Positions 33,220-56,486 of a stretch of DNA of 64,000 bases are shown one piece after another. This DNA is from Acidovorax sp. GBBC 1281. Lineage in GTDB: Bacteria; Pseudomonadota; Gammaproteobacteria; Burkholderiales; Burkholderiaceae_C. The DNA lies in NCBI RefSeq assembly GCF_028473645.1, contig NZ_CP097269.1, forward strand, positions 2,002,001 to 2,066,000, written 5' to 3'. The position numbers and the translations under genes were made by a program. Within the stretch, counting starts at the first letter, position 1; the number at the start of each line of letters is the position of its first letter. A model generated the notes under the pieces. It was not told the origin of the DNA, ran no database searches, and saw only the letters and a list, made by a program, of their open reading frames with translations.

Positions 33220-33282
33220 GCCGGTACGGCGAGGGCAGCAGCCGAGTGCAGGTCTTGAGCCTGATCGGCCTATACCGCTTTA

Positions 33283-33328
33283 TTCACGCCATCATTTGCT
33301 ATGAAAAAGTAGCGCCTGATGGCGCTCA
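33283..33328 (-). repeat. Short interspersed palindromic repeat, intergenic copy
   Basis: The outer palindrome CGCCATCA ... TGATGGCG encloses TGCTA-TGAAAAAG-TAGCG. It is AT-rich in the centre and has the GCTAY/TAGC end of the repeat family. It lies between the proline-rich gene and the LysR gene and reaches the LysR stop region. Confidence 0.6.
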
Positions 33329-34228
33329 AGGCCGGTGCTTCATGACCAGGGAATACATCGCCTGGGCTGCGACCGACAGGCTGCGGTCCCGGCGCCGCAC
33401 CAGGTAGATCTGGCGTGTCAGCCCTGGCAATGCCAGCGGCCGCGTCACCAGCCCGGGTTGGTCGAAGTGGAAAAGCGTGAGGGTGGGCACCACGCTGATG
33501 CCCAGGCCCGCGCGCACCATGCCCATCACGGTGGCGAGCTGTTCCACTTCCATGAGCGTGTTCATCGCCTGCGGGTGCAGCGCTGCCTCCAGGTACTGGC
33601 GAACGCTGCTGGTTCGCGCCAGATGCACGAAAGGGAACGCTGCCAGGTCGGCGGGTTGCAGCGCAACGACCTTGCCGCCATGGCGCCGGCGACGCGCGAG
33701 CGGATGGTCGGCGCGGCACACCAGGTGAAAGCCGTCGCTGCTGAACGGCTCGGCCTGCAGTTCCGGCGTATCGGCCCGGATGGCGGCCAACGCGAAATCG
33801 GCCTTACCCGTGGCCACCTGCTCGATGCAGGGTTCCGACAGCACATCGGCGATGTCCAGTTCGATGCCGGGATGGGCCGCGCGGTACGCCGCCAGCACTC
33901 CGGGCAGCCAGCCCGCCGCGAGCGAGGGCAGCAGGGCGATCGCCACGCGCCCCCGGCGCAGCGTAGCGGTGTCGTGCACTGCGGCGAAGGCGTTGTCGAC
34001 CTCGGCCCGGATGCGGCGCGCGGACTCCAGAAAATCCTCACCTTCCGCCGTCAGGGCCACATGGCGCGTGCTGCGGTCGAACAACCGCAGTCCCATCGCA
34101 TCTTCCAGCGTGCGGATGAGGGCGCTGAAGGCGGGCTGCGACAGGTGACAGTGCGCAGCCGCCCGCGTGAAGCTGCGCTGGCCGGCCAGGGCGAGAAAGG
34201 CATCGATCTGCCGTGTGGAGATATTCAT
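33326..34228 (-). CDS. LysR-family transcriptional regulator
   Basis: The 300-residue regulator has the N-terminal winged HTH (RQIDAFLALAGQRSFTRAAA, HLSQPAFSALIRTLEDAMGL) and a C-terminal periplasmic-binding-like effector domain (RRGRVAIALLPSLAAGWLPG onward). It is divergent from the AtuA-like gene, with 81 bases between the starts. That gap contains ATTC-N4-GAAT-like symmetry (around 34232-34243) suited to a LysR T-N11-A site. It probably controls the adjacent catabolic cluster in response to a substrate or intermediate. Confidence 0.9.
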   Translation of the reverse strand: MNISTRQIDAFLALAGQRSFTRAAAHCHLSQPAFSALIRTLEDAMGLRLFDRSTRHVALTAEGEDFLESARRIRAEVDNAFAAVHDTATLRRGRVAIALLPSLAAGWLPGVLAAYRAAHPGIELDIADVLSEPCIEQVATGKADFALAAIRADTPELQAEPFSSDGFHLVCRADHPLARRRRHGGKVVALQPADLAAFPFVHLARTSSVRQYLEAALHPQAMNTLMEVEQLATVMGMVRAGLGISVVPTLTLFHFDQPGLVTRPLALPGLTRQIYLVRRRDRSLSVAAQAMYSLVMKHRP

Positions 34229-38846: not shown

Positions 38847-39897
38847 GGCTTTGTTGCACAAATCGCGATGCTGATGCCCGTAGACTGACTGCGTGACAGA
38901 GACGAAGAACAGGCAGCGGAGCAAGTACCGCACGACGAACTGGAAGGCGTACAACGCGGCGCTGAAAGCGCGAGGCTCGTTGACGATGTGGCTAGATGAG
39001 GGCATGCAGTGGTTTGGCACGCCGACCGGCAGGCGTGGACGCAGCCGAACCTTCTCGGACGCAGCAATCCAGTTCTGCCTGAGCATCAAGTGCCTGTTCG
39101 GCCAGCCCTTGCGACAGGCGCTGGGCATGGTGCAGAGCCTGCTGCGGCTGGCAAAGCTGGACTGGCCGGTACCTGACTTCAGCACTGTTTGCCGGCGCCA
39201 AAAGACCTTGCAGGTCGAACTGAGCTACCAGCGAACCAACTCGCCGCTGCAGTTGCTGGTGGACAGCACCGGCATCAAGTTCCTGGGCGAAGGAGAGTGA
39301 AAACGCAAGAAGCATGGTGCTGAATACCGGCGCGAATGGCGCAAGGTCCATCTGGGCATCGACGCGCAGACGCTGGAAATACGCGCCATCGAGGTGACCA
39401 GCAACGCCATTGGGGATGCGCCGATGTTGCCCGGGTTGCTGGCTCAGATTCCCACTGACGAATCCATCGAAAGCGTCAGTGCCGATGGCGCCTACGACAC
39501 GCGCGCCTGCCTGGACGCCATTGCCGAGCGGCACGCGATGGCGGTGATCCCGCCCCGCAAGAACGCCAGCCATTGGAAGAAGTCGAGTCCGGGCTCGGCG
39601 CATCGTAATGAGGCCATTCGGGCGTGCCAGCGCCTGGGTCGCGGCATTTGGAAGAAGTGGAGCGGCTACCACCGGCGCAGCCTTGTGGAGACGAAGATGC
39701 ACTGCTTCAAGCGACTGGGCGAACGGGTGATCGCGCGCACGTTCGACCGCCAGGTTGTGGAGCTGCATGTCCGCGTGGCCTTGCTCAATCGGTTCAGTCA
39801 GATCGGCCGTCCTCACACCGTGTCGGTGACTGCTGTGGCATAGGTCCGTCTGGGGTTGGGGTCATGCCGTCTGCAATTCGATTTGTGCAACAGCGCC
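38847..39897 (+). mobile_element. IS5-family (IS903-type) insertion sequence
   Basis: The element is 1051 bp, with left end GGCTTTGTTGCACAAATCG and right end (inverted) GGCGCTGTTGCACAAATCG. It is flanked by an exact 9-bp duplication CACTTCACC (38838-38846 and 39898-39906), the size typical of the IS903 group. It contains one transposase gene, which carries an in-frame stop. It disrupts the hydrolase gene above. Confidence 0.95.
38893..39843 (+). pseudogene. IS903-type transposase with in-frame nonsense codon
   Basis: A single frame of 317 codons encodes an IS5-family DDE transposase: NWKAYNAALKARGSLTMWLD, then LLVDSTGIKFLGEGE with the first Asp, VSADGAYDTRACLDAIAERH with the second, and LVETKMHCFKRLGERV with the Glu. 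A TGA at 39298-39300 interrupts it where relatives have Trp (GEGEW-KRKKHGAEYRREW). One G-to-A change (TGG to TGA) explains it. The start is GTG 38893. As it stands, full-length transposase needs readthrough. Confidence 0.9.
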
Positions 39898-40600
39898 CAC
39901 TTCACCGACACCTTCCGCGCGCTGTTCATCGCGCTGGAAGACTGGGTGGTGCGCGGCACCGAGCCGCCAGCCAGCCAGGTGCCCAAGGTGGCCGACGGCA
40001 CGCTGGTGCCGCCCGCGAAGCTTGTGTATCCGGCCATGCGGGGATTGACTTGGAGCGTGGGCGGCACGCCGACCGCCATCCCGGCGTTCGACTACCTGGC
40101 GCGCTACAACGGCTTCTCGCTGCTGGACTTCGGGCCGCAGTACGTGCCGCAGGACGAGTCCGGCATCGCCACTCTGCAGCCGCCGCGCGACGTGGGCCGC
40201 GACTACGCCATCCTGGTGCCGCAGGTGGACCCGTCCACCGGCCTGGCCCGCGCCGGCATCCAGAGCGTGGAAGCGCGTGCGCCGCTGGGCACGAGCATCG
40301 AGTTCAACTACGTGGCCACGCCGGGCATCACCGATCTGTCCAACCTCACCGGCAGCTTCATTCCCTTCCACAAGACGCGCGCCGCGCGGCTGGCGGCGGG
40401 CGATGCGCGGCCTTCGCTGGAGGAGTTGTACGGCACGCAGGCCGGGTACGTGGCCGCGGTCACCCAGGCGGCCGATGCACTGGTGGCGGGGCGCCTGCTG
40501 CTGCGGCGCGATGCGGATGCGCTGGTGGCCAAGGCCAGGGCGTCTTCCGTGCTTCCCTGACGCGGAAGGGTGGCGGGGCGGTGGTTTGAATGAAAAACTG

Positions 40601-40649
40601 CCGATGCCCTAGTCGTCATTGCCTCCATTGCTATTAATTTAATAGCAAT
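40601..40649 (+). repeat. Short interspersed palindromic repeat overlapping the MocR gene 3' end
   Basis: CCGATGCCCTAGT ... TCATTGCCTC precedes a near-perfect palindrome ATTGCTATTA-ATT-TAATAGCAAT. It matches the copy inside the hydratase-family gene (56046-56094, opposite strand) at 41 of 49 positions by hand alignment. It contains the stop codon and last codons of the leftward MocR gene. Confidence 0.8.
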
Positions 40650-42099
40650 CGGTGGCGGCGTCCGAGGACCCGCCCCGGCACAGCCCGCCGGCCAGCGCGC
40701 CCACGGTGCGCAGGGCCTCGTCGAAGCGCGCCGCGGCCGGGTGGCCGCAGTTGATGCGCACGCGGTGCGAGAAGCGCCGGTCGGTGGAAAAGAGGTGCCC
40801 CGGTGCCAGGCTGATGCCCTGGCCCAGCGCCGCGCGGTGCAGAGCCAGGGCATCCACGGACTGGGGCAGCTCCACCCACAGGAAATACCCGCCGTCCGGC
40901 CGCGACACGCGCGTGCCGGGCGGAAAGTGCTCGGCGATCAGCGCCCGTGCGCGCGCCTGCTGGCGCGCCAGCGTGCCGCGCAGCTGGCGCAGGTGCCGGT
41001 CGTAGCCGCCCTGGTCCAGGTATTCCGACAGCGCCTGCTGCGACGGCGTGGCGGTCGAGAGCGTGGTCATCAGCTTCAATCGCTGCACCGCGCCGGCAAA
41101 GCGGCCCGCGGCCACCCAGCCCACGCGATAGCCGGGCGCCAGGCATTTGCTGAACGAGCTGCAGTGCAGCACATGGCCCCCGGTGTCGAAGGCCTTGGCC
41201 GGCGGTGGGCGGCGCGGGGCGAAGTGCAGTTCGCCATACACGTCGTCCTCGATCAGCGGCACGCCGCGGCGGGCCAGCAGCGCCACCAGCGCCTCCTTGC
41301 GCTCCTCGGGCAGGGTGCTGCCCAGCGGGTTCTGAAACGTGGGCATGAGCCAGCAGGCCTTGACGGGGTGTGCGTGCAGCGCGCGTTCCAGGGCGCCCAG
41401 GTCGATGCCTTCGCGCGGGTGGGTGGTGATCTCCACCGCGCGCAGCCGCAGCCGCTCCAGCGCCTGCAGCGCCGCGTAGAAGGTGGGCGACTCCAGCACC
41501 ACGATGTCGCCCGGCTGCGTGATGGCCTCCAGGCACAGGTTGAGCGCCTCCATCGCGCCGTTGGTGGTCACGATCTCGGCCGCATCCACCGCCATGCCGT
41601 GCAGGCCGTAGCGCAGCGCGATCTGCTGGCGCAGCCGCTCATCGCCTGGCGCCAGGTGCTGCACGATGGCGGCCGGGTCCAGCCGGCGCATGCCGCTGGA
41701 CAGGCAGCGCGCCAGCCGCGCCAGCGGAAAGAGTTCAGGGCCCGGAAACGCCGACCCGAGCGGCACCAGGTGCGGGTCGCGCGCCGATCCCAGCACGTCG
41801 AACACCAAGTCGCTGATCTCCACGCCGCGCGAGCCGTCGTGCGGCGCCGAAGGCTGGGGCTCGGCCGGGACGCGGTCCGTGGCGGACGGCTGCCGGTGGC
41901 TCACGTAGTAGCCCGAGCGCGGCCGCGCATGCACCAGTCCCTGCGCTTCCAGCAGGTCGTAGGCCGCGAACACGGTCGATGGGCTGATGCCCCGGGCCCG
42001 GCTGGTTTCCCGCACCGAGGGCATGCGATCGCCCGCGCGCAGGGCGCCGCTGTGGATCAACTGGGCGAGGGCGTCGGCGTGGCGTTCGTAGCGTTTCAT
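40639..42099 (-). CDS. MocR-type regulator (GntR HTH fused to class I aminotransferase)
   Basis: The 486-residue protein has an N-terminal GntR winged HTH (LAQLIHSGALRAGDRMPSVR, RARGISPSTVFAAYDLLEAQ) and a C-terminal aminotransferase-like domain. The PLP lysine lies in SSFSKCLAPGYRVGW, with the aminotransferase block FQNPLGSTLPEERK. MocR proteins sense PLP or amino acids and control B6, GABA or related pathways; the target here is unknown. The start is ATG 42099, where the HTH begins. The last three codons and stop (D-C-Y-stop) come from a palindromic repeat. It diverges from the cytochrome genes. Confidence 0.9.
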   Translation of the reverse strand: MKRYERHADALAQLIHSGALRAGDRMPSVRETSRARGISPSTVFAAYDLLEAQGLVHARPRSGYYVSHRQPSATDRVPAEPQPSAPHDGSRGVEISDLVFDVLGSARDPHLVPLGSAFPGPELFPLARLARCLSSGMRRLDPAAIVQHLAPGDERLRQQIALRYGLHGMAVDAAEIVTTNGAMEALNLCLEAITQPGDIVVLESPTFYAALQALERLRLRAVEITTHPREGIDLGALERALHAHPVKACWLMPTFQNPLGSTLPEERKEALVALLARRGVPLIEDDVYGELHFAPRRPPPAKAFDTGGHVLHCSSFSKCLAPGYRVGWVAAGRFAGAVQRLKLMTTLSTATPSQQALSEYLDQGGYDRHLRQLRGTLARQQARARALIAEHFPPGTRVSRPDGGYFLWVELPQSVDALALHRAALGQGISLAPGHLFSTDRRFSHRVRINCGHPAAARFDEALRTVGALAGGLCRGGSSDAATDCY

Positions 42100-42266
42100 G
42101 GACGGGAGCGGACCGGGGAGGGGTGGTGGATGGACCGTGGCGGCGTGGACGGCATGCAACTGATCCGTATTTTTAGCGGCAAACTGAATCTGTACTGTTT
42201 TGCCCGGGGTGCGTAGAGTCGCACCATGGCAGACCTGCCGCATTCCCACGTCCGATCGGATCCCCC

Positions 42267-43034
42267 ATGAATGAAACCGCATGCCGGGCCGGGCGCCTGG
42301 CTTTGTCGGCCCTTGTGTCGCTGTTCGCGCTGCTGACCACTGCGGGGCCAGCCGCCGCGGCGGCCCCTGCCGACGGGCCGGCTGCTCCCGGGCTGGGCGA
42401 CCGCGTGCTGGCCTGCACCGCCTGCCACGGCCGGGAAGGGCGCGCCACCCAGGAGGGCTACTTTCCGCGCATCGCCGGCAAGCCGGCGGGCTACCTCTAC
42501 CACCAGCTGCTCAATTTCCGGGACGGCCGCCGCAGCTATCCGCAAATGGCCTACCTGCTGGAGCACATGACCGACGACTATCTGCGCGAGATCGCCGCGC
42601 ATTTCGCCGCGCTGGACCTGCCCTACACGCCGCCGCCGCCGACCCAGGCGACTCCTGCGGCCCTGGAGCGCGGGCGCACGCTGGTGCGCCAGGGGGATGC
42701 CGCGCTGGGCATTCCGGCCTGCGTGCAGTGCCATGGGGCCGCCATGACCGGCGTGGCACCGGCCATTCCCGGCCTGCTCGGATTGCCGCGCGACTACCTC
42801 AACAGCCAGATTGGCGCCTGGCAGACCGGCCAGCGGCGCGCCCAGGCGCCCGATTGCATGGCCCATGTGGCCCGCCAGCTCGTACCCGAAGACGTGAGCG
42901 CGGTCACTGCCTGGCTGTCCGCACAGGCCGTGCCCGCCGATGCTCGGCCTGCTTCTGCCTTGCCCGGCCGGCTGCCGATGCCCTGCGGCGGCGTGGCCGC
43001 TGCCGGCACGGGCGCATTGGGGGGCTTGCGATGA
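42267..43034 (+). CDS. Diheme cytochrome c (c4-like)
   Basis: The 255-residue periplasmic protein has a signal peptide (LALSALVSLFALLTTAGPAA) and two haem-binding CxxCH motifs, CTACH near residue 50 and CVQCH near residue 152. Axial-Met candidates include YPQMAYLLEHM. The sequence HGREGRATQEGYFPRIAGKP is cytochrome c4-like. It should pass electrons between membrane or periplasmic dehydrogenases and oxidases. Its stop overlaps the ATG of the triheme gene. Confidence 0.9.
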   Translation: MNETACRAGRLALSALVSLFALLTTAGPAAAAAPADGPAAPGLGDRVLACTACHGREGRATQEGYFPRIAGKPAGYLYHQLLNFRDGRRSYPQMAYLLEHMTDDYLREIAAHFAALDLPYTPPPPTQATPAALERGRTLVRQGDAALGIPACVQCHGAAMTGVAPAIPGLLGLPRDYLNSQIGAWQTGQRRAQAPDCMAHVARQLVPEDVSAVTAWLSAQAVPADARPASALPGRLPMPCGGVAAAGTGALGGLR

Positions 43035-44314
43035 AGCGCGCGCTGAAAGGGCTGGCCGGCCTGGTGCTGCTGGGCGCCTTGGCGTGCGCCGTGGTGGTGT
43101 ACCTGAACCTGCGCGGCGAAGCGCCCTTGCCGCCGCAGGACGTGCCCCTGGCCCAGCCCGCGCCGCAGGCCGTGCAGCGCGGCGAATACCTGGCGCGTGC
43201 GGGCAATTGCATGTCGTGCCACACCGCGCAGGGCGGGGCGCCGTTTGCCGGAGGCCGGGGCGTGGAGACGCCGTTCGGCGTGGTGTTCGCCAGCAACCTC
43301 ACGCCCGACGCCGAAACCGGCCTGGGGCGCTGGACAGCGGCGGAGTTCTGGCGCGCGATGCACCACGGCCGGTCTCGGGACGGCCGGCTGCTGTACCCCG
43401 CGTTTCCCTACCCCAACTACACCCACGTCACGCGCGAGGATTCCGACGCGATCTACGCCTACCTGCGCAGCCTGCCGGCCGTGCAGCGCACCAACACGCC
43501 GCATGCGCTGGCTTTCCCGTTCAGCACGCAAGCCGCGCTGGCCGGCTGGCGCGCGCTGTTCTTCCGGCCCGGCACGCTGGCGCCCGATCCGCAGCAGTCG
43601 GCCGAATGGAACCGGGGTGCCTACCTCGTGCAGGGCCTGGGCCACTGCGCGGCCTGCCACAGCCCGCGCAACGCCTTCGGCGCGACGAGCGAGTCGCAGG
43701 CGTTCCGCGGCGGGCTCATCCCGGTACAGAACTGGTATGCCCCGGCCCTCAACGCCGCCGCCGAGGCGGGTGTGGCCGGCTGGCCGCAGGAAGACGTGGT
43801 GGCGCTGCTGCGCACCGGCGTGGCACCGCGCGGGTCGGTCACCGGGCCCATGGCCGAGGTGGTGTTCCGCAGCACCCAGTACCTGAACGATGCCGACCTG
43901 GGCGCCATGGCGGTCTACCTGCGCGCGCTGCCCGCACACGAACGCCCGGCACCGGCGGTGGCACCCCCGTTCGCTTCGGCCATGGAGCGGGGTGCCGCCG
44001 TGTATTCGCAACAATGCGCGCAATGCCACGGAGAGCGCGGCGAGGGCCGGGCCGGGGCGTTTCCCGCACTGGCAGGAAACCGCGCCGCGACCATGGAAAA
44101 TCCGACCAATCTGGTGCGCATGGTGCTCCTGGGCGGTTACCCGCCCACCACGGCCGGCAACCCGCGTCCCTACGGCATGCCGCCATTCCGTCACGTGCTG
44201 GGTGACGACGACGTGGCGGCGGTATCGACCTATGTTCGCAACGCCTGGGGCAACCGGGCGGCCAGTGTGGGTACGATGGACATCTACCGCGCCCGCGAGG
44301 GGCGCCATCCCTGA
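43031..44314 (+). CDS. Triheme cytochrome c (dehydrogenase cytochrome-subunit type)
   Basis: The 427-residue protein has an N-terminal membrane anchor or uncleaved signal (ALKGLAGLVLLGALACAVVV) and three CxxCH motifs: GNCMSCH near residue 60, HCAACH near 209 and QCAQCH near 329. The pattern and length match the cytochrome c subunits of membrane alcohol, gluconate or aldehyde dehydrogenases (EYLARAGNCMSCHTA, VVFASNLTPDAETGLG). No flavin or PQQ dehydrogenase is encoded beside it, so its electron donor must be elsewhere. ATG 43031 overlaps the diheme stop. Confidence 0.9.
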   Translation: MKRALKGLAGLVLLGALACAVVVYLNLRGEAPLPPQDVPLAQPAPQAVQRGEYLARAGNCMSCHTAQGGAPFAGGRGVETPFGVVFASNLTPDAETGLGRWTAAEFWRAMHHGRSRDGRLLYPAFPYPNYTHVTREDSDAIYAYLRSLPAVQRTNTPHALAFPFSTQAALAGWRALFFRPGTLAPDPQQSAEWNRGAYLVQGLGHCAACHSPRNAFGATSESQAFRGGLIPVQNWYAPALNAAAEAGVAGWPQEDVVALLRTGVAPRGSVTGPMAEVVFRSTQYLNDADLGAMAVYLRALPAHERPAPAVAPPFASAMERGAAVYSQQCAQCHGERGEGRAGAFPALAGNRAATMENPTNLVRMVLLGGYPPTTAGNPRPYGMPPFRHVLGDDDVAAVSTYVRNAWGNRAASVGTMDIYRAREGRHP

Positions 44315-44331
44315 GCCCCATCCTTTCTTCC

Positions 44332-44712
44332 ATGCACGCACCGGCCGCCTCTCCCGACATGTCCCTCTCAAGCGCGACCGCCGGCTGGTGGGTCGTCTGC
44401 CTGTGCGCCGGCTGGTGCGGCGCCTGCCGCGAATACCGTGCGGTGTTCGACACCGTGGCGCAAGCCCATCCACAGGCCCGCTTCGTGTGGGTGGACATCG
44501 AAGACGAGGAAGACCTGGCCGGCGATCTGGACGTGGAAACCTTCCCGACCCTGCTCATCGCCGATCCGGCCGGCGCGCGCTTTCTCGGTCCGCTGCTGCC
44601 CCAGTCCGGGGTGCTTTCGCGGTTGCTCGACAGCCTGGCATCCCAGCCTCCGGCAGGGCGGGATCCACAGGCCCAGGCGCTGATCGAACGGGTGCGCGCA
44701 GCCCGTGGATAG
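44332..44712 (+). CDS. Thioredoxin-like protein
   Basis: The 126-residue protein has the redox motif WCGAC in VVCLCAGWCGACREYRAVFD and the strand FVWVDIEDEEDLAGDLDVET followed by FPTLLI, where Pro is the conserved cis-Pro. No signal peptide is obvious, so it may be cytoplasmic. It follows the triheme cytochrome by 17 bases and may keep haem-binding cysteines or other targets reduced; that link is inferred from position. Confidence 0.82.
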   Translation: MHAPAASPDMSLSSATAGWWVVCLCAGWCGACREYRAVFDTVAQAHPQARFVWVDIEDEEDLAGDLDVETFPTLLIADPAGARFLGPLLPQSGVLSRLLDSLASQPPAGRDPQAQALIERVRAARG

Positions 44713-44773
44713 CGGAGAACCGCCGGGTTTTTCGCTCGCTCGCCGCAGGGGCGGCCGGTACGCCTGTGGCGCC

Positions 44774-44826
44774 AATGCAAATTGCATGCCGCCGCCTTTG
44801 CAAAGCGGCGCGCGACAGGCTACAAT
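44774..44826 (+). promoter_or_regulatory. Promoter of the rimP-nusA-infB operon
   Basis: The -35 box TTGCAA (44798-44803) and -10 box TACAAT (44821-44826) have exact 17-base spacing. A 13-base palindrome ATGCAA-A-TTGCAT (44774-44786) lies just upstream of the -35 box and could be an operator. Transcription would start near 44833, before an intrinsic terminator and 132 bases before rimP. Confidence 0.65.
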
Positions 44827-44841
44827 TGCATCTTCACGACC

Positions 44842-44873
44842 AAACGGGCGGGTACCTACCGCCCGTTTTTTTT
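44842..44873 (+). terminator. Intrinsic terminator in the rimP leader (possible attenuator)
   Basis: Arms AAACGGGCGG (44842-44851) and CCGCCCGTTT (44859-44868) with a 7-base loop run into eight T (44866-44873). It lies after the predicted rimP promoter and before the rimP start, so it may act as an attenuator. It could also end transcripts from the thioredoxin-like gene. Confidence 0.82.
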
Positions 44874-44964
44874 GGCCGTTCGCTTTTGGAGCTCGAAGCT
44901 GCCCTGGAAGGTCCTAGGTGGTTATCGGGTTTTTTGTACTTCTGGATACTGAACAGAACAACAC

Positions 44965-45555
44965 GTGGCATTGCAGCAGATCGTTGAACAAACCGTGACC
45001 GGGCTGGGCTATGACCTGGTGGAGATCGAGCGCTCCGCCGGCGGCCTGCTGCGCATCACCATCGATTTGCCCTGGCAGGCGCCCGTGGAGGGCGAGCCCG
45101 TGCTGCCCGAGCAGTTCGTCACCGTGGAAGACTGCGAAAAGGTCACGCGGCAACTGCAGTTCGCGCTGGAAGTGGATGGCGTCGAGTACAAGAGGCTGGA
45201 GATTTCCTCGCCCGGCATCGATCGCCCTCTGCGCCACGAGCAGGATTTCATCCGTTTCACCGGGCACATGGTGGACCTCACGCTCAAGGCGCCCATCGGC
45301 GAGGCTGGCGGCGGTCAGGTCAATGCCAACCGCAAGAAATTCCGCGGCACGCTGGAGCGTACCGAAGCCGGTGGATGGCAGGTCGTCTGGAGCGAGGAGC
45401 CGCCCGTGAAGCCTGGCCAGCGGGTCAGCAAGAAACGGGTACCGGCGCCGCTGCAAGCGCTGGGTTTCACGCTGGACGAACTGCGCGATGCGCGCCTGGC
45501 GTCCATCGTCGATTTCAAGGGGCGGGGATCCAAAGACGGGCCGGTCCAGGCCTGA
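44965..45555 (+). CDS. rimP: Ribosome maturation factor RimP
   Basis: The 196-residue product is needed for 30S subunit maturation. The two-domain pattern is visible: GLGYDLVEIERSAGGLLRIT, EDCEKVTRQLQFALEVDG and YKRLEISSPGIDRPLRHEQD with the conserved SSPGxDRPL signature. The start is GTG 44965. It is the first gene of the rimP-nusA-infB-rbfA-truB operon of translation factors, and has its own promoter and leader terminator. Confidence 0.94.
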   Translation: MALQQIVEQTVTGLGYDLVEIERSAGGLLRITIDLPWQAPVEGEPVLPEQFVTVEDCEKVTRQLQFALEVDGVEYKRLEISSPGIDRPLRHEQDFIRFTGHMVDLTLKAPIGEAGGGQVNANRKKFRGTLERTEAGGWQVVWSEEPPVKPGQRVSKKRVPAPLQALGFTLDELRDARLASIVDFKGRGSKDGPVQA

Positions 45556-45631
45556 CACACCGAACGAATACAAAGGTTGGCGCGCGCGGCGCGGCGGCCT
45601 TCAAGAGATTGAAAAATAGGAGAGTCGTCGC

Positions 45632-47116
45632 ATGAATCGCGAACTGTTGATGTTGGTCGAAGCCATTTCGCGTGAGAAGAACGTGGAACGCGATGTGGTC
45701 TTTGGCGCCGTCGAATTGGCCCTTGCCCAGGCCACGAAGAAGCTGTACCAAGGCGAAGTGGACATCCGTGTCGCCATCGACCGTGACAGCGGCAACTACG
45801 AGACTTTCCGTCGCTGGCTCGTCGTGCCCGACGACGCCGGTCTGCAAAACCCCGAAGCCGAAGAGCTGCTGATGGATGCCCGCGAGCGCATCGCCGACAT
45901 CGAAGTGGGTGAATTCATCGAAGAAGGCGTCGATTCCGTGCCGATCGGCCGCATCGGCGCCATGGCTGCCAAGCAGGTCATCCTGCAGAAGATCCGCGAC
46001 GCCGAGCGCGAGATGCTGCTCAACGACTTCATGTCGCGCGGCGAAAAGATCTTCACCGGCACCGTCAAGCGCATGGACAAGGGCGACATCATCGTCGAGT
46101 CGGGCCGGGTGGAAGGCCGCCTGCGCCGCTCCGAGATGATCCCCAAGGAAAACCTTCGCAATGGCGACCGCGTGCGCGCCATGATCATGGAAGTGGACCT
46201 GACGCTGCGCGGCGCGCCCATCATCCTCTCGCGCTCGGCGCCCGAGTTCATGATCGAGCTGTTTCGCAACGAAGTGCCCGAGATCGAGCAGGGCCTGCTG
46301 GAGATCAAGAGCTGCGCGCGCGATGCCGGCAGCCGCGCCAAGATCGCGGTGCTGTCGCACGACAAGCGCGTCGATCCCATCGGCACCTGCGTGGGCGTGC
46401 GTGGCACGCGTGTCAACGCCGTCACCAACGAGCTGGCTGGCGAGCGGGTGGACATCGTGCTGTGGTCGGAGGACCCCGCCCAGTTCGTGATCGGCGCGCT
46501 GGCGCCGGCCAACGTGTCGTCCATCGTGGTGGATGAAGAGAAACACGCCATGGACGTGGTGGTGGACGAGGAAAATCTCGCCATCGCCATCGGCCGCGGT
46601 GGCCAGAATGTGCGCCTGGCTTCCGACCTGACGGGCTGGAAGATCAACATCATGGACGCGGCTGAAAGCGCGCAAAAGCAGGCCAACGAGACCGACACGG
46701 CCCGCAAGCTGTTCATGGAAAAGCTCGATGTGGACGAGGAAATCGCCAACATCCTGATCGAGGAAGGCTTCGCCAGCCTCGAAGAGGTGGCCTACGTGCC
46801 GCTGCAGGAAATGCTGGAGATCGAAAGCTTCGACGAAGAAACCGTGAACGAGCTGCGTGCCCGCGCCAAGGATGCGCTGCTCACCATGGAAATTGCCCGA
46901 GAGGAAAGCGTGGACGGCGTTTCGCAGAACCTGCGCGATCTCGAGGGCCTCACGCCCGAGTTGATCGGCAAGCTCGCCGAAGGCGGCGTGAACACCCGGG
47001 ATGATCTGGCCGACTTAGGCCTTGACGAACTGACCGCCCTGACCGGCCAGTCTGAAGAAGATGCCAAAGCCTTGATCATGAAGGCGCGCGAACATTGGTT
47101 CGCGGGGCAAGAGTAG
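45632..47116 (+). CDS. nusA: Transcription termination/antitermination factor NusA
   Basis: The 494-residue protein has an N-terminal RNA-polymerase-binding domain ([20 protein letters not shown]), an S1 domain ([20 protein letters not shown]), two KH domains ([38 protein letters not shown]) and C-terminal acidic repeats ([39 protein letters not shown]). It modulates pausing, termination and rRNA antitermination. Position and length are standard. Confidence 0.97.
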
Positions 47117-47139
47117 GTCAGGGGAGGTACGAACCAAAT

Positions 47140-49989
<2,850 letters not shown>

Positions 49990-50004
49990 GGCCCGGGGCT
50001 CGAC

Positions 50005-50376
50005 ATGGCTGCGAAGAAATCCTCCACCCCCAACCGCGGCTTCAAGGTCGCCGATCAGATCCAGCGCGATCTGACGGAGTTGATCGCGCGCGAATTGAAA
50101 GATCCGCGCGTGGGCATGGTGACGCTGCAGGCCGTGGAGGTGACTCCCGACTACGCGCATGCCAAGGTCTTCTTCAGCGTGCTGATCGGTGACCCCGAAG
50201 CCACGCAGGTGGCGCTGAACCAGGCCGCGGGCTTCCTGCGCAACGGCCTGTTCAAGCGCCTGCACATCCACACCGTGCCCACGCTGCACTTCGTGTTCGA
50301 CCGCACCACCGAGCGTGCGGCCGACATGAACGCCTTGATCGCCAAGGCGGTTTCTTCGCGCGCCCAAGAAGACTGA
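50005..50376 (+). CDS. rbfA: 30S ribosome-binding factor RbfA
   Basis: The 123-residue KH-fold protein assists late 16S processing and cold adaptation. The core reads [40 protein letters not shown] and [11 protein letters not shown], with the terminal [17 protein letters not shown]. Standard operon position between infB and truB. The next start is two bases after its stop. Confidence 0.95.
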
Positions 50377-50378
50377 GC

Positions 50379-51455
50379 ATGCATACCGACGGGCCGCCCC
50401 AGGGAGCGAGTGCCCCCTTGGGGGGCAGCGATTGGCACGCAGCGAACGGGCCGCGTGGCGGTGCGGTGCGCGCGCCGCGCACCCGCATCCAGCGGCGTCC
50501 GGTTCATGGCGTGCTGCTGCTCGACAAACCACTGGGCCTGTCGAGCAACGATGCCCTGCAGAAGGCCAAGTGGCTGCTGCGGGCAGAGAAGGCGGGCCAC
50601 ACCGGCACGCTCGATCCACTCGCCACGGGCGTGCTCCCGCTGTGCTTCGGCGCGGCGACCAAGTTCAGCCAGTTGCAGCTGGACGCCCCCAAGACCTACG
50701 AGGCCATCGCGCTGCTGGGGACGACGACCACCACCGGCGACGCGGAGGGCGAGGTGCTGGCGCAGCGCGAGGTCGATCCGGCGCAGCTCACGCCCGAGCG
50801 CCTGGCCGAGGTGCAACGCCAGTTCACGGGACCGATCCGCCAGGTGCCGCCCATGCACAGCGCGCTCAAGAAAGACGGCAAGGCGCTGTACGAGTACGCA
50901 CGCGCCGGCATTGCCGTGGAGCGCGAGGCGCGCGACGTGGTCATCCATGCATTGAAACTGGCTCCAGTACAAGAAACACTAGGGCGTTCTGCTATCAAAA
51001 TAATAGTTACCTGCAGCAAGGGCACCTACATCCGCACGCTGGGCGAGGACATCGGTGCCGCGCTCGGTTGCGGCGCGCACCTCACGTTCCTGCGGCGCAT
51101 CGACACCGGCGGGCTGGGCGTGGAGCGCTGCGTCACGCTCGCCGCGCTGGAGGCGATGGACGAGGGTGAGCGCATGGCCTGCGTGCACCCCGCCGAGATC
51201 CTGCTGGCACAGCATGTGCGTGTCACGCTGGACAGCGAGAATGCCGGGCGGTTCCTGTCCGGCGTGCGCCGCCGCGGCCCCTGGCCCGATGCGCCCGCGG
51301 TCGCGGTCTTCGGAGACGATCCCCATGCCCTGCTGGGCGTGGGCCACACCACTGCGGGTGAACTGGTGCCCGACCGGCTCCTGAGCCCCTTGGAAATTCA
51401 ACAGATTCTAGAAAGCACGCCGCAGGTAGAGCGCGGCATATTGGAAGCACTATGA
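50379..51455 (+). CDS. truB: tRNA pseudouridine(55) synthase TruB
   Basis: The 358-residue enzyme makes pseudouridine 55 in tRNA T-loops. The core starts at VHGVLLLDKPLGLSSNDALQ. The catalytic Asp lies in GHTGTLDPLATGVLPLCFG, and CSKGTYIRTLGEDIGAALGC is the second signature. The first 30 or so residues (MHTDGPPQGASAPLGGSDWH onward) come from a GC-rich repeat and are not part of the usual protein; GTG 50466 would start a 329-residue form. A palindromic repeat is read in frame just before CSKGTYIR. The TGA overlaps the typA ATG. Confidence 0.93.
   Translation: MHTDGPPQGASAPLGGSDWHAANGPRGGAVRAPRTRIQRRPVHGVLLLDKPLGLSSNDALQKAKWLLRAEKAGHTGTLDPLATGVLPLCFGAATKFSQLQLDAPKTYEAIALLGTTTTTGDAEGEVLAQREVDPAQLTPERLAEVQRQFTGPIRQVPPMHSALKKDGKALYEYARAGIAVEREARDVVIHALKLAPVQETLGRSAIKIIVTCSKGTYIRTLGEDIGAALGCGAHLTFLRRIDTGGLGVERCVTLAALEAMDEGERMACVHPAEILLAQHVRVTLDSENAGRFLSGVRRRGPWPDAPAVAVFGDDPHALLGVGHTTAGELVPDRLLSPLEIQQILESTPQVERGILEAL
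50385..50465 (+). repeat. GC-rich palindromic repeat at the truB start
   Basis: GGGCCGCCCCAGGGAGCGAG is followed by the hairpin GCCCCC-TTG-GGGGGC and then GCAGCGAT ... GCAGCGAACG. The composition and hairpin resemble GC-rich intergenic palindromes I associate with this bacterial family. Here the sequence is translated as the apparent TruB N-terminus if the first ATG is used. Confidence 0.5.
50952..51006 (+). repeat. Short interspersed palindromic repeat, in-frame copy inside truB
   Basis: TTGAAACTGGCTCCAG is followed by ACTAGGGC (50978-50985) and ends GCTATCAAAATAATAG. It shares GGCTCCAG and the AT-rich GCTAT end with the tmk copy, and ACTAGGGC with the hydratase-gene copy. It encodes the LAPVQETLGRSAIKII stretch before the TruB CSKGTYIR motif. 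Confidence 0.6.
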
Positions 51456-53272
51456 GCAAACAAATCCGCAATATCGCCATCATCGCGCACGTTGACCACG
51501 GCAAAACCACCATGGTCGACCAGCTGCTGCGCCAGTCCGGCACCTTCGCTGACCACGAAAAGGTCGTCGATACCGTGATGGACAACAACGCCATCGAAAA
51601 AGAGCGTGGCATCACCATCCTGGCCAAGAACTGCGCCGTGAGCTGGGAAGGCACGCACATCAACATCGTCGACACCCCGGGCCACGCGGACTTCGGCGGC
51701 GAAGTGGAACGTGCCCTGTCCATGGTGGACAGCGTGGTGCTGCTGATCGACGCGCAAGAGGGCCCCATGCCCCAGACGCGTTTCGTGACCAAGAAGGCCC
51801 TGGCCCTGGGCCTGCGCCCGATCCTGGTCGTGAACAAGGTGGACAAGCCCGGTGCCAACCCCGACAAGGTGGTGAACGCCGCGTTCGACCTGTTCGACAA
51901 GCTGGGCGCGACCGACGAGCAGCTCGACTTCCCCGTGGTGTATGCCTCGGGCATCAATGGCTGGTCCTCGCTGGAAGAAGGCGCTCCCGGCGAGCAGTGG
52001 GGCCCCGACATGTCGGCCCTGTTCAACACCATCCTCAAGCACGTGCCCCCGAACTCGGGTGATCCGACCGCTCCGCTGCAACTGCAGATCTCGGCGCTCG
52101 ATTTCTCCACCTTCGTGGGCCGCATCGGCGTGGGCCGCATCAGCCAGGGCACTGTGAAGCCCGGCCAGGACGTGCTGGTGATGGAAGGCCCCGAGGGCAA
52201 GAGCGTCAAGGGCCGCATCAACCAGGTGCTGACCTTCCAGGGCCTGGACCGCATGCAGACGCCCCTGGCCGGCCCGGGCGACATCGTGCTGATCAACGGC
52301 ATCGAGGACATCGGCATCGGCGTGACCGTGACCGACCCCTCCAACCCCGCACCGCTGCCCATGCTCAAGGTGGACGAGCCCACGCTGACCATGAACTTCT
52401 GCGTGAACACCTCGCCCCTGGCCGGCCGCGAAGGCAAGTTCGTGACCAGCCGCCAGATCTGGGACCGCCTGCAAAAGGAACTGCAGCACAACGTGGCCCT
52501 GCGCGTGAAGGAAACCGACGAAGAAGGCATCTTCGAGGTGATGGGTCGTGGCGAACTGCACTTGACCATCCTGCTGGAAAACATGCGCCGCGAAGGCTAT
52601 GAACTGGCCGTGTCCAAGCCGCGCGTGGTGTTCCGCGACATCAACGGCGAAAAGCACGAGCCGATCGAGCTGGTGACGGCCGACATCGAAGAAACCCACC
52701 AGGGCGGCGTGATGCAGGCCCTGGGCGAGCGCAAGGGCGAACTGGTGAACATGGAGTCGGACGGCCGTGGCCGCGTGCGCCTGGAGTACCGCATTCCGGC
52801 CCGTGGCCTGATCGGTTTCACCAACGAATTCCTGAACCTGACGCGCGGCTCGGGCCTGATCTCCAACATCTTCGACAGCTACGAACCGCACAAGGGCGCC
52901 ATCGGCGGCCGCAAGAACGGCGTGCTGATCTCCATGGACGACGGTGAAATCTTCACCTACGCCCTGGGCAAGCTGGACGACCGCGGCCGCATGTTCGTGA
53001 AGGCGAACGACCCGGTGTACGAAGGCATGATCGTCGGCATCCACAGCCGCGACAACGACCTGATCGTGAACGCCACGCGCACCAAGCAGCTGACCAACTT
53101 CCGCGTCTCCGGCAAGGAAGACGCGATCAAGATCACGCCCCCGATCGACCTCACGCTGGAATACGGCGTGGAGTTCATCGAGGACGACGAACTGGTCGAG
53201 ATCACGCCCAAGAGCGTGCGCCTGCGCAAGCGCTTCCTGACGGAAAACGAGCGCAAGCGCGCCGGCCGCTGA
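51452..53272 (+). CDS. typA: Ribosome-associated GTPase TypA/BipA
   Basis: The 606-residue translational GTPase has the G1 motif IIAHVDHGKTTMVDQLL near residues 10-26, ERGITILAKN (switch I), DTPGHADFGGEVER (G3) and VVNKVDKPGANPDKV (G4). EF-G-like beta-barrel and alpha/beta domains and the BipA-specific C-terminus follow. It supports 50S assembly and stress or cold adaptation. Its ATG overlaps the truB stop and a terminator follows, so it is the last gene of the rimP operon. Confidence 0.96.
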   Translation: MSKQIRNIAIIAHVDHGKTTMVDQLLRQSGTFADHEKVVDTVMDNNAIEKERGITILAKNCAVSWEGTHINIVDTPGHADFGGEVERALSMVDSVVLLIDAQEGPMPQTRFVTKKALALGLRPILVVNKVDKPGANPDKVVNAAFDLFDKLGATDEQLDFPVVYASGINGWSSLEEGAPGEQWGPDMSALFNTILKHVPPNSGDPTAPLQLQISALDFSTFVGRIGVGRISQGTVKPGQDVLVMEGPEGKSVKGRINQVLTFQGLDRMQTPLAGPGDIVLINGIEDIGIGVTVTDPSNPAPLPMLKVDEPTLTMNFCVNTSPLAGREGKFVTSRQIWDRLQKELQHNVALRVKETDEEGIFEVMGRGELHLTILLENMRREGYELAVSKPRVVFRDINGEKHEPIELVTADIEETHQGGVMQALGERKGELVNMESDGRGRVRLEYRIPARGLIGFTNEFLNLTRGSGLISNIFDSYEPHKGAIGGRKNGVLISMDDGEIFTYALGKLDDRGRMFVKANDPVYEGMIVGIHSRDNDLIVNATRTKQLTNFRVSGKEDAIKITPPIDLTLEYGVEFIEDDELVEITPKSVRLRKRFLTENERKRAGR

Positions 53273-53316
53273 TCGGTGAGTGTGAGGGGGTTTCGATCCC
53301 CTTCGCTGGCTTCGAG

Positions 53317-53346
53317 AAAGGCACCGCGAGGTGCCTTTTTCTTTTT
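53317..53346 (+). terminator. Intrinsic terminator after typA
   Basis: Arms AAAGGCACC (53317-53325) and GGTGCCTTT (53330-53338) with loop GCGA, followed by TTTTTCTTTTT. It ends the rimP-typA operon. Confidence 0.9.
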
Positions 53347-53382
53347 CCGTGCTCTTCCTGAGGTGCTCCGGCGTTCAGGCGC

Positions 53383-55143
53383 TCAGGCGGGCAGGGCGGT
53401 CTCCCCGGCTGGGGCGCCCTGCCCGGGCAGGTTGGAAGTGGCGATCGCCTGCGGTGCGTGGCTCGGTGCCAGCACGCATTCGCGGGCATGGAAGTCGGCC
53501 AGCGCGTCCCGGTGGCCCACGCTGATGACCGTGGCGGCAGGCAGGCGCTCGGCCAGCAGCGTGTAGAGCATGCGCTCGGCCGCCGGGTCCAGCGCGCTGG
53601 TGGCCTCGTCCAGCAGCACCCATTCGGGTTGCTGCAGCAGCACGCGCGCGAAGGCCAGGCGCTGCTGCTCGCCGGGCGACAGGCGCTGGGCCCAGGGCGC
53701 CACCTCGCCGAGCAGGCCGCTGAACGGCGCAAGCCCCACCGCCTGCAGTGCCTCGCGCACCTGCGCTTCGGGGTGTTCGCCGGCCGTGTCCGGGTAGGCG
53801 AGCGCATCGGCCAGGCTCCCCATCGGCAGGTAGCTGCGCTGCGGCACGAAGAGCATCCGCGCGCGCGGCCGCTCGATGGTGCCGCTGCCGAAGTCCCACA
53901 GGCCGGCCAGCGCGCGCAGCAGGGTGCTTTTTCCCGCTCCGGAGGGGCCCCGCAGCAGCCAGCGCTCGCCGGGCGCGATGCGCAGGTCGGGCACGCTAAG
54001 CAGCGTGGCGCCGCTGGGCAGGGCCAGTTGCAGGCCGTGCGTCGCCAGCACGGAGCCGTCCCCGGCTCGCCACTGGATTCCTTCGGACGGCGTGGCAGGC
54101 ACGGTGGCGAGCACGTCGCGCAGCTCGGCCAGCCGGTTCACCGTGGCGCGCCATTCCGCCAGCGTGCCGTAGCTGTTGATGAACCAGGACATCGCCCCGC
54201 TCACCGTGTCGAAGGCCCGGCTGATCTGCATCAGCACTCCGAAGCTGTAGGCGCCCGCGAAGTAGCGTGGCGCTGCCAGCGCGAGCGGCAGCACCACGGC
54301 CACCTGCGCGTACAGCGAGTTCACCAGCGTGAGGCGCTTGGTGTAGCGCATCACCATCCGCCAGTTGTCCTGGATGCGGCCGAACAGGGTGGCGGAGTGG
54401 GCGGCTTCGGCCCGTGCGCCGTCGTACAGCGCAATGGGCTCCGCGTTTTCGCGCACCCGCACCAGGCCGAAGCGGAAGTGCGCCTCCACCTGCTGCTGGC
54501 GGTAGTTCACGGCCACGAGTCGGTGGCCGAAGGCCTGCATGGCGACCGAGCCCACCACGGCATAGGCCGCTGCGGCCCAGACCATGTAGCCTGGAATGGT
54601 GGCGCTGTAGCCTGCCACATGCACCAGCAGCGGCCCGCCCACCGACCAGAGGATCACAACGAACGAACCAAGGGTGACCACCGTGGACAGCAGGTCCAGC
54701 GTCAGCGCGAGGGTGGTGGTGGCCAGGCTGCTGAGGTCATCGGCGATGCGCTGGTCCGGGTTGTCGGCCAGCCGGTCGCGCTCGATGCGGTAGAACGCGT
54801 TGCCGTGCAGCCACCGCTGCAGGTAGTCGGTCGTGAGCCACCGGCGCCAGCGAAAGCCGAGCATCTGCTTGAAGTACAGCGCATACACGGCCAGGACGAT
54901 GTAGGCCAGCGCCAGCCCGGTGAACAGCAGCAGCAGGGGCCCGAAACGGGCAGTGTCCCGCGCCTCCAGGGCGTTGAAGAAGTCCGCGCTCCAGGCGTTG
55001 ATGCGCACGTTGATGTACACGATGCCCAGGTTCATCGCCACGATCAGTGCCAGCAGGCCCCGCGCGGGCCAGCGCTCCTGCGAGAACCAGTAGGGGCGGA
55101 TCAGTGACCAGGCGGACGTCTTGGCAAGCGGGGGATGGGGCAT
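53383..55143 (-). CDS. SbmA/BacA-like ABC transporter, fused permease and ATPase (YddA type)
   Basis: The 586-residue half-transporter has an ABC_membrane_2 region (residues about 20-330; FNALEARDTARFGPLLLLFT, LADNPDQRIADDLSSLATTT) and an ATPase domain with Walker A GPSGAGKSTLLRALAGLW, signature LSPGEQQRLAFARVLLQQ and Walker B WVLLDEATSALD. The signature is LSPGE, as in the YddA/ABCD-like group, instead of LSGGQ. Relatives move peptides, cobalamin or fatty acyl compounds; the substrate cannot be told. It converges with typA. Confidence 0.88.
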   Translation of the reverse strand: MPHPPLAKTSAWSLIRPYWFSQERWPARGLLALIVAMNLGIVYINVRINAWSADFFNALEARDTARFGPLLLLFTGLALAYIVLAVYALYFKQMLGFRWRRWLTTDYLQRWLHGNAFYRIERDRLADNPDQRIADDLSSLATTTLALTLDLLSTVVTLGSFVVILWSVGGPLLVHVAGYSATIPGYMVWAAAAYAVVGSVAMQAFGHRLVAVNYRQQQVEAHFRFGLVRVRENAEPIALYDGARAEAAHSATLFGRIQDNWRMVMRYTKRLTLVNSLYAQVAVVLPLALAAPRYFAGAYSFGVLMQISRAFDTVSGAMSWFINSYGTLAEWRATVNRLAELRDVLATVPATPSEGIQWRAGDGSVLATHGLQLALPSGATLLSVPDLRIAPGERWLLRGPSGAGKSTLLRALAGLWDFGSGTIERPRARMLFVPQRSYLPMGSLADALAYPDTAGEHPEAQVREALQAVGLAPFSGLLGEVAPWAQRLSPGEQQRLAFARVLLQQPEWVLLDEATSALDPAAERMLYTLLAERLPAATVISVGHRDALADFHARECVLAPSHAPQAIATSNLPGQGAPAGETALPA

Positions 55144-55382
55144 CGAGGGAGCGATCGTCGTGGGGGGATGTCCAGTGTGCCGCGCGCGCCGGGCGGCTGG
55201 CTTAGCCGGGCCTTAAACGCGCTCCCGTGCATCGCTGCGTGCGCTGTGGCGTGCGTGGGGCCGGCACCTGTCCACCGCCTGACATTCGCTGAGCGCCACA
55301 GGCCCTAAGATTCCGCCCAGGCCGGCCGCCAGCGTGCGAGCGGGTCTTTCAGGCAGTGAACCGATTGAAAAAAGGAACAGCG

Positions 55383-56486
55383 ATGACGGAGACGACGACG
55401 GCAGCGGCCGCAGAGGTTTTGGCCCAGGTGCGCGGGCAGGTGGGGTTCATCACCCTCAACCGCCCCCGGGCACTGAATGCGCTGTCGCTGGGCATGGTGC
55501 GCGCGCTCATGGAGACCCTGCTGGCATGGCAGGACGACGAGCGCATCCTGGCGGTGGCCATTCGCGGCAGCAACAAGGAAGGCCCGTTCGGGGCCTTCTG
55601 CGCGGGCGGCGACATCCGCTTTCTGCACCAGGCGGGCAGCCAGGGCGATCCGAGGCTGGAGGATTTCTTCACCGAGGAATACGCGCTCAACCACCTGATC
55701 CACCACTACGGCAAGCCCTACATCGCGTTCATGGACGGCATCGTGATGGGCGGCGGCATGGGCATCAGCCAGGGGGCCAGCCTGCGCATCGTGACCGAGC
55801 GCACGAAGATGGCCATGCCCGAGACGGCCATCGGCCTGTTTCCGGACGTGGGGGGCGGCTATTTCCTGTCGCGTTGCCCGGGACACGCCGGCGAATGGCT
55901 GGGCCTGACGGGTGACACCATCGGCGCAGGCGATGCGGTGGCGCTGGGCCTGGCCGACGGCTGCCTGCCGTCCGATCGGCAGGCGGCGGTCTGGGATGCG
56001 CTGGGCACGGAGTCCTTCACCGACGCAGCGGCGGTGCAGGCATCGATTGCTACTAAATTTGTAGCACAAGAGGCAATGAGTACTAGGGCATCGGCCGAAA
56101 TCGATCGATATTTCGCGTTGGACAGCGTCCAGGCCATCATGGCGGCCCTGGAGGCCGCCGGCACCGATTGGGCCCGCACCACGGCAGCCACCTTGCGCAA
56201 GCGCTCGCCGCTCATGCTGCACATGGTGCTGGAGCAGATCCGCCGCGCCCGCGGCATGGATCTGGCGGCCGATCTGCGCATGGAGCGCGACATGGTGCGC
56301 CACTGCTTTTTCCTGCGGCCCGGCCAGAGCGAAACGGTCGAAGGCATCCGGGCCCTGGCGGTGGACAAGGACCACACGCCGCGCTGGAGCCCGGCGCGCA
56401 TCGAGGACGTAACGCCGGAGATGGTGGCGCCGTTCTTCCAGAGCCCGTGGCCGGCCCATGCCCACCCGCTGGCCGCGCTGCGCTGA
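55383..56486 (+). CDS. Enoyl-CoA hydratase/isomerase family protein (3-hydroxyisobutyryl-CoA hydrolase-like)
   Basis: The 367-residue protein has the crotonase fold with the ECH_2 layout: VGFITLNRPRALNALSLGMV, the oxyanion segment FCAGGDIRFLHQ, GIVMGGGMGISQGASLRIVT, and the acid/base region MAMPETAIGLFPDVGGGYFL. This pattern points to 3-hydroxyisobutyryl-CoA hydrolase (valine degradation) or a close relative. Residues about 222-237 (IATKFVAQEAMSTRAS) are encoded by a palindromic repeat inserted in frame between the core and the C-terminal domain. AGGA before ATG 55383 supports this start. Confidence 0.87.
   Translation: MTETTTAAAAEVLAQVRGQVGFITLNRPRALNALSLGMVRALMETLLAWQDDERILAVAIRGSNKEGPFGAFCAGGDIRFLHQAGSQGDPRLEDFFTEEYALNHLIHHYGKPYIAFMDGIVMGGGMGISQGASLRIVTERTKMAMPETAIGLFPDVGGGYFLSRCPGHAGEWLGLTGDTIGAGDAVALGLADGCLPSDRQAAVWDALGTESFTDAAAVQASIATKFVAQEAMSTRASAEIDRYFALDSVQAIMAALEAAGTDWARTTAATLRKRSPLMLHMVLEQIRRARGMDLAADLRMERDMVRHCFFLRPGQSETVEGIRALAVDKDHTPRWSPARIEDVTPEMVAPFFQSPWPAHAHPLAALR
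56046..56094 (-). repeat. Short interspersed palindromic repeat, in-frame copy inside the hydratase-family gene
   Basis: The AT-rich palindrome ATTGCTACTAAATTTGTAGC is followed by AGAGGCAATGA, ACTAGGGCATCGG. Its reverse complement equals the copy at 40601-40649 at 41 of 49 positions. The surrounding gene is strongly GC-rich, so the AT-rich patch stands out, but the frame is maintained. Confidence 0.82.

Follow-up and report, generated by a model that had tools for sequence, protein, structure and literature searches.

How does the same short palindromic sequence come to lie at the end of one gene and, in frame, inside another? The question arose in a stretch of 64,000 nucleotides (the window) from Acidovorax sp. 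GBBC 1281 (G000), positions 2,002,001 to 2,066,000 of contig NZ_CP097269.1. A first-pass annotation had reported two near-identical 49-base segments, 40601-40649 and 56046-56094 read in reverse complement, with 41 matching positions; one segment lies at the 3' end of a MocR-type regulator gene and the other in frame in a crotonase-type gene. It had likened the pair to the Rickettsia palindromic elements (RPEs) and inferred mobility. Recomputation again gave 41/49, and both placements stood; the crotonase segment translates in frame as IATKFVAQEAMSTRASA. We found that the two segments belong to a dispersed element which is old, fixed in place and not jumping. The core of this element differs between genomes, yet at an orthologous site it matches the other copies of its host genome.

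A composite repeat in several hundred copies

Aligned copies consist of three modules: a dyad (TTGCTAY-N7-RTAGCAA) with near-invariant outer letters, a core of about 19 bp, and the tail GGAGGCCNTTTTGACTC. The whole element is about 68 bp long (median 68 bp, profile search), with a GC content of 36.6-54.1% (mean 44.6%) versus 67.0% for the sampled sequence. Between dyad and tail, which stay the same, the core can point either way: 20 of 65 copies are type A and 45 type B.

Further copies, which the first-pass annotation had proposed to look for, were abundant. With two or fewer mismatches, the core GGCAATNNNNACTAGGGCA was found at 161 places in the 5.71-Mb genome versus 2 for the reversed pattern, indicating that the resemblance of the window segments is not due to chance. 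In 944 kb of this genome, the profile search yielded 65 copies, of which 29 came from evenly spaced stretches (360 kb in total) and 36 from chosen blocks (584 kb); the reversed sequence gave none at the same threshold. These counts extrapolate to roughly 350-460 copies per genome. A third copy in the window, in frame in truB, joined the two noted before (Table 1). The dyad TTGCTAN9TAGC occurred at 297 places here (13 reversed) and at 38-410 places in 13 relatives (3-13 reversed); in 149 further genomes of the order, including 3 from the same family, the count never exceeded 29. The earlier view of a real repeat family, common to Comamonadaceae, was thus borne out. Clustering along the chromosome was rejected, as the 71 best core places fit an even spread (Kolmogorov-Smirnov p =.52).

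Element sites are fixed and coding copies add few residues

The nearest relatives of this genome are Acidovorax sp. NCPPB 3576 (G056) and Paracidovorax valerianellae (G001 and G052, the same assembly), within Comamonadaceae. When 36 copies were compared with G056, all 29 sites with both flanks alignable were shared; six lacked a flank and one was far. In the reverse comparison from G056, 28 of 37 sites were shared, seven lacked a flank and two lay in diverged stretches. These two apparently absent sites had flank identities of 72-76%, and one of them held a decayed copy. Against P. valerianellae, the dyad was kept with at most one substitution at all 25 sites with both flanks (of 36), where the background for such a dyad was 215 of 4000 random 160-bp stretches. 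The dyad was also better conserved than the upstream flank (78% vs 57%, G000 vs G052). The sites are therefore common to related genomes and not polymorphic, contrary to the mobility supposed at first. Recent transposition was rejected, there being no presence/absence case at alignable sites, and so was active inversion of the core, because the A/B orientation was the same at 29/29 sites shared with G056.

Protein lengths told against insertion as well. Among 24 aligned crotonases (23 from relatives), there was no gap at residues 222-240, and the crotonases without the repeat (L057, L058, L061 and L062) were equal in length there, the place where the first-pass annotation had proposed to see whether residues 222-237 are missing. 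A few other crotonases differed by 1-3 residues, and solved homologues by -5 to +10. TruB exceeded its counterparts in E. coli and in two other families of the order by 4 residues. In EarP, one element copy went with 4 extra residues and the second with about 1. For RsgA, the match ends before the element copy, so the length comparison does not reach it. Coding copies are thus near length-neutral (crotonase 0, TruB +4, EarP +4 residues). RPEs are palindromic repeats in frame inside protein genes, as this element is, but they are insertions that add residues, which sets the length-neutral element apart from them.

The core follows its host genome

The core of this genome, marked by CTAGGG, had 40 matches in P. 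valerianellae (1 for the control) and 0-3 in the other 48 genomes searched. Most Acidovorax-type genomes carry a canonical core, AGCGCTT-N7-AAGCGCT. Counted in relatives of this genome as AAGCGCTAGAGGCC, it occurred 319 times in G002, 158 in A. defluvii (G013), 152 in G014 and 124 in A. temperans (G007), with controls of 0-2; P. valerianellae gave 10 (control 4) and P. konjaci 1 (control 8). In the loci inspected, the P. konjaci core is ATTGAATGGATCCGGCGGCAT; A. kalamii and HMWF029 have a looser, fourth form. A further form, CAATGAATACGGCGG, was counted 34 times in P. valerianellae (control 3), 14 in G055 (control 3) and 2 in this genome (control 2).

Orthologous sites were scored with a profile of each dialect, three built from copies chosen by dialect pattern (14, 21 and 8 copies) and the fourth from 20 unfiltered copies. 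At the truB site, located by protein-alignment anchoring, the host's own dialect scored best in 25 of 26 labelled genomes: 20/21 canonical (5 of these 21 test genomes also contributed copies to the canonical profile), 4/4 CTAGGG and 1/1 konjaci. The label of G055 comes from kinship and CAATGAATACGGCGG counts and not from the CTAGGG search. The konjaci score was 16.0, with 6.4 for the next dialect and 9.0 for the highest shuffled score. The fourth dialect scored best in G009 and G010. The truB dyad was kept in 29 of 32 family genomes.

Of the 25 genomes labelled for the crotonase site, 23 had a detectable dyad, and in 21 of these the own dialect was best; P. valerianellae and P. konjaci scored weakly there. 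The first-pass annotation had held that the same peptide in other genera would speak against its reading; a related sequence was indeed found there, with the twist that it carries the repeat version of its own genome. At the MocR end, this genome and G056 carry CTAGGG, and G055 and P. valerianellae the CAATGAATACGGCGG form. Beside a gene resembling that of a REP-associated tyrosine transposase (RAYT; REP, repetitive extragenic palindromic), the dyads of this genome and P. konjaci are identical (17/17) and the cores differ. The konjaci core was also found in P. konjaci at the intergenic site 1,101,575. Over the five sites comparable in P. konjaci, it was clear at three, partial at one (crotonase) and unrecognisable at one.

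In type-B cores, half-sites follow the genome and spacers the site

We compared type-B cores between this genome and P. valerianellae. Raw half-site likeness was.83 for pairs within G000,.79 for orthologous pairs and.70 for non-orthologous ones; the fuzzy CTAGGG pattern used to locate the cores biases these values upward. In the 4-nt spacer, orthologues agreed at.53 versus.36 otherwise (p =.006). Half-sites that follow the genome around a spacer private to the site argue against gene conversion in blocks and for site-by-site maintenance by recognition. Over the whole 22-nt core the picture was weaker:.655 between orthologues,.646 within G000,.496 within P. valerianellae and.529 for the others. 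Taken with the contrast of half-site and spacer, it suggests that the change proceeds site by site and is unfinished. Between block conversion and sites that follow a recogniser, block conversion is the less likely.

What the core may track

An evenly balanced case can be made that the element is a dispersed composite DNA motif at fixed sites, whose core tracks a sequence-specific factor with a specificity that shifted between lineages. Such a factor would read the core half-sites, perhaps the dyad too. As its specificity shifts between lineages, the several hundred sites would follow singly, through point changes under selection or biased transmission. Inside genes, this tracking would rewrite permissive residues. 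If true, a family-wide motif changes in step over whole genomes without moving, visibly in the residues of housekeeping enzymes, and shows how a DNA feature spread over the genome can drive protein sequence in nature. For annotation, the element-encoded peptides would be neither insertions nor signals of protein homology.

The putative factor may belong to DNA recognition in natural transformation, with the element as a composite uptake signal with dialects, a role that we propose tentatively; second in line comes an architectural DNA-binding protein or one acting at transcript ends. In coding sequence, the DNA uptake sequences (DUS) of Neisseriaceae are length-neutral, and the coding copies described here nearly so. 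The two also share lineage dialects of one motif, intragenic copies, and intergenic copies at gene ends. DUS are known for clade-specific dialects, common intragenic copies and intergenic copies tied to gene ends, as given in part of PMC3630211. They differ in being words of about 10-12 bases (about 9-12 for uptake signals of the DUS/USS kind) in a different family, at higher density and with a shown uptake function, as against about 68 bp, several hundred copies and a putative uptake role here. Natural transformation has been reported for A. temperans, A. facilis and Verminephrobacter eiseniae; A. temperans gave transformants with same-species DNA only, A. defluvii DNA failed to transform it, and V. 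eiseniae uptake was inhibited to a limited extent by excess salmon DNA (PMC4212676). The passages on uptake in that report name no sequence signal. If this reading is right, the element would be a candidate basis for the species-specific uptake reported for Acidovorax and Verminephrobacter. Somewhat more doubtful is the fuller scenario, in which a composite uptake signal of Comamonadaceae, some 65 bp long and differing in dialect between species, occupies several hundred fixed sites; the specificity of the receptor would drift, the sites would follow, and conserved genes such as truB would be rewritten in step with the rest of the genome.

Several points weigh against a core that tracks a recognising factor. 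The half-site difference of.83 vs.79 is descriptive, and the type-A spacer (.41 vs.33, n = 8, p =.26) was not significant. Type-B cores are less alike within P. valerianellae (.496) than between it and G000 at orthologous sites (.655), so that concerted change there is incomplete. The P. valerianellae crotonase copy scored 7.8, where the 95th percentile of the null was 7.6. The genomes are kin, and few independent dialect switches therefore lie behind the own-dialect counts, which are descriptive and not a test of independence; the permutation p-values of the own-dialect test ignore kinship. No recognising protein was identified, and factor and element function alike are putative. As for uptake, the canonical core is common to A. 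temperans and A. defluvii, and the transformation barrier between them is therefore not accounted for by dialect; at about one copy every 12-16 kb, the element is also sparse in comparison with uptake signals.

Alternative explanations

Intragenomic gene conversion, in which short recombination homogenises the core within each genome, perhaps begun by nicks of the RAYT-like transposase, is rather unlikely as the cause of the dialects. It would account for cores that are alike within a genome, and a single RAYT-like gene is present in most genomes, with a dyad just upstream at 6 of 17 loci inspected. Conversion would, however, need tracts of less than about 20 bp, as the spacer amid the type-B core stays private to the site and dyads stay private where the core differs (29/32 at truB; 17/17 identical with P. 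konjaci at the RAYT-like gene).

The placement of copies raises an RNA-level reading, a transcript terminator or a stabiliser of mRNA 3' ends at gene ends. By gene positions from a home-made gene caller, 52 of 65 copies were intergenic: 19 in convergent, 30 in tandem and 3 in divergent gaps. Relative to 464 reference gaps of at least 60 bp (64 convergent, 298 tandem, 102 divergent), convergent gaps were enriched (19/52 vs 14% expected, p = 3e-5) and divergent gaps depleted (3/52 vs 22% expected, p =.002). This strong 3'-end and convergent bias, with 33 of the 52 no more than 50 bp from where a predicted gene ends, speaks for an RNA element, as do the perfect AT stem of many copies and the self-complementary canonical core. 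Against it, bases at dyad positions 5 and 13 paired as TA 33, TG 7, CA 18, CG 4 and AA 3 (Fisher p = 1); the halves vary independently, without covariation, which indicates that the dyad is kept as a sequence and not as a base-paired stem. Fold z-scores of five stretches were weak (-2.0, -1.1, 0.4, -0.3 and -0.3; the final two stretches include an element only in part), the cores of this genome and of P. konjaci lack self-complementarity, and 13 copies lie inside predicted genes. A search of 18 loci, including the MocR-end and crotonase copies and not the truB copy, gave no Rfam match at the gathering score. We regard an RNA element as distinctly unlikely.

Spread as REP/REPIN-type elements by the RAYT-like transposase is less plausible still and very unlikely. 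High copy number (several hundred), palindromic, inverted symmetry and one RAYT-like gene recall such systems (PMC2817692, in part), and a dyad stands beside the gene in six related genomes. The gene encodes a RAYT-like Y1 transposase, is single-copy at G000:C1:1087223-1087516 (L038), and was found in 23 of 27 genomes searched. Its best NCBIfam model, REP_Tyr_transpos, scored 67.1 bits, under the cut-off of 80. In contrast to REPs as described in the excerpts of PMC2817692, the element has no GTAG head, and the transposase does not lie between two inverted copies; one dyad stands beside the gene, and none at 11 of 17 loci. Presence/absence differences were lacking at alignable sites, and G003, a metagenome assembly, has 155 dyads (6 reversed) with no match to the transposase family.

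RPE-like in-frame insertion followed by compensating deletions that restored length fits the frame of the repeat and the 4 extra residues of TruB and EarP over their homologues, but is highly improbable, as 68 inserted base pairs correspond to about 22 extra residues and the crotonase shows 0 difference from 23 aligned relatives, including those without the repeat.

Beta-proteobacterial repeat elements (BRE), the only Comamonadaceae repeat met in our literature search, are likewise dispersed in Betaproteobacteria and partly inside coding sequences. In Bordetella they have 63.7-78.9% GC, lengths of 75-91 bp and tandem arrays, according to the relevant part of PMC3110155. Membership was rejected on this description of GC and length, the element having 36.6-54.1% GC and a median of 68 bp. 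Within the openly licensed literature, we found no paper describing the element, in agreement with the first-pass annotation.

Element copies and their host genes

All 13 copies inside predicted genes are in frame. Their hosts are truB, a crotonase gene, earP (two copies), hemD, comEC, a DsbD-like gene, a second MocR gene, rsgA, a second crotonase gene, a Nudix gene and two Rhs paralogues. On the coding strand, the core reads ACTAGGGCA in 12 of the 13, two of which are in the Rhs paralogues; intergenic tandem copies had no core-strand bias (12 vs 18). Open frames in type B are commoner in the ACTAGGGCA direction. In the MocR/PdxR-like gene of the window, the stop codon (GAT TGC TAT TAA) is supplied by the element, inside the dyad.

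Table 1. Element copies in the window and the genes that hold them
Feature	Window position	Strand	Remark
MocR-end element copy, A type (dyad, core GGCAATGACGACTAGGGCA, tail)	40580..40652	-	profile and pattern search
Dyad GCTA-N9-TAGC, MocR-end copy	40629..40645	.	
19-bp core, MocR-end copy	40605..40623	-	contig position G000:C1:2042605-2042623
MocR/PdxR-like regulator gene, ends in element copy	40639..42099	-	start chosen at MKRYERH
truB element copy, B type, in frame, residues ALKLAPVQETLGRSAIKIIV	50949..51006	-	
truB, tRNA pseudouridine synthase B, host gene	50379..51455	+	
Crotonase element copy, A type, in frame, residues SIATKFVAQEAMSTRASAEIDRYFA	56044..56115	+	
Dyad GCTACTAAATTTGTAGC, crotonase copy	56048..56064	.	
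19-bp core GGCAATGAGTACTAGGGCA, crotonase copy	56072..56090	+	contig position G000:C1:2058072-2058090
Crotonase-superfamily gene, 3-hydroxyisobutyryl-CoA hydrolase subfamily, host gene	55383..56486	+	

Further observations

The MocR-end copy had no match among phage records. A decayed copy lies at 33228-33334 of the window, with the dyad GCTATGAAAAAGTAGC at 33297, where G056 has a recognisable element. The window region 38893-40589 comprises one or more open reading frames, presumably transposase-like, and directly after them a gene fragment that looks truncated, as if by an insertion sequence: its match to Abhydrolase_10 is confined to the C-terminal end (profile 304-429 of 429).

Elsewhere on the chromosome, G000:C1:1220001-1240000 (L124) holds five element copies, and at least two of these lie in frame at matching positions in paralogous Rhs-family genes. 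On plasmid NZ_MZ513635.1 (L385), a canonical core and tail lie at 1501-1546 inside a DUF1010 gene, which in this one inspected record sits between aadA2 and dfrA12, adjoining intI1. The L385 query piece matched 1748 plasmid records, with DUF1010 named in 11 of the 15 listed. The plasmid occurrence suggests a cassette of Comamonadaceae origin.

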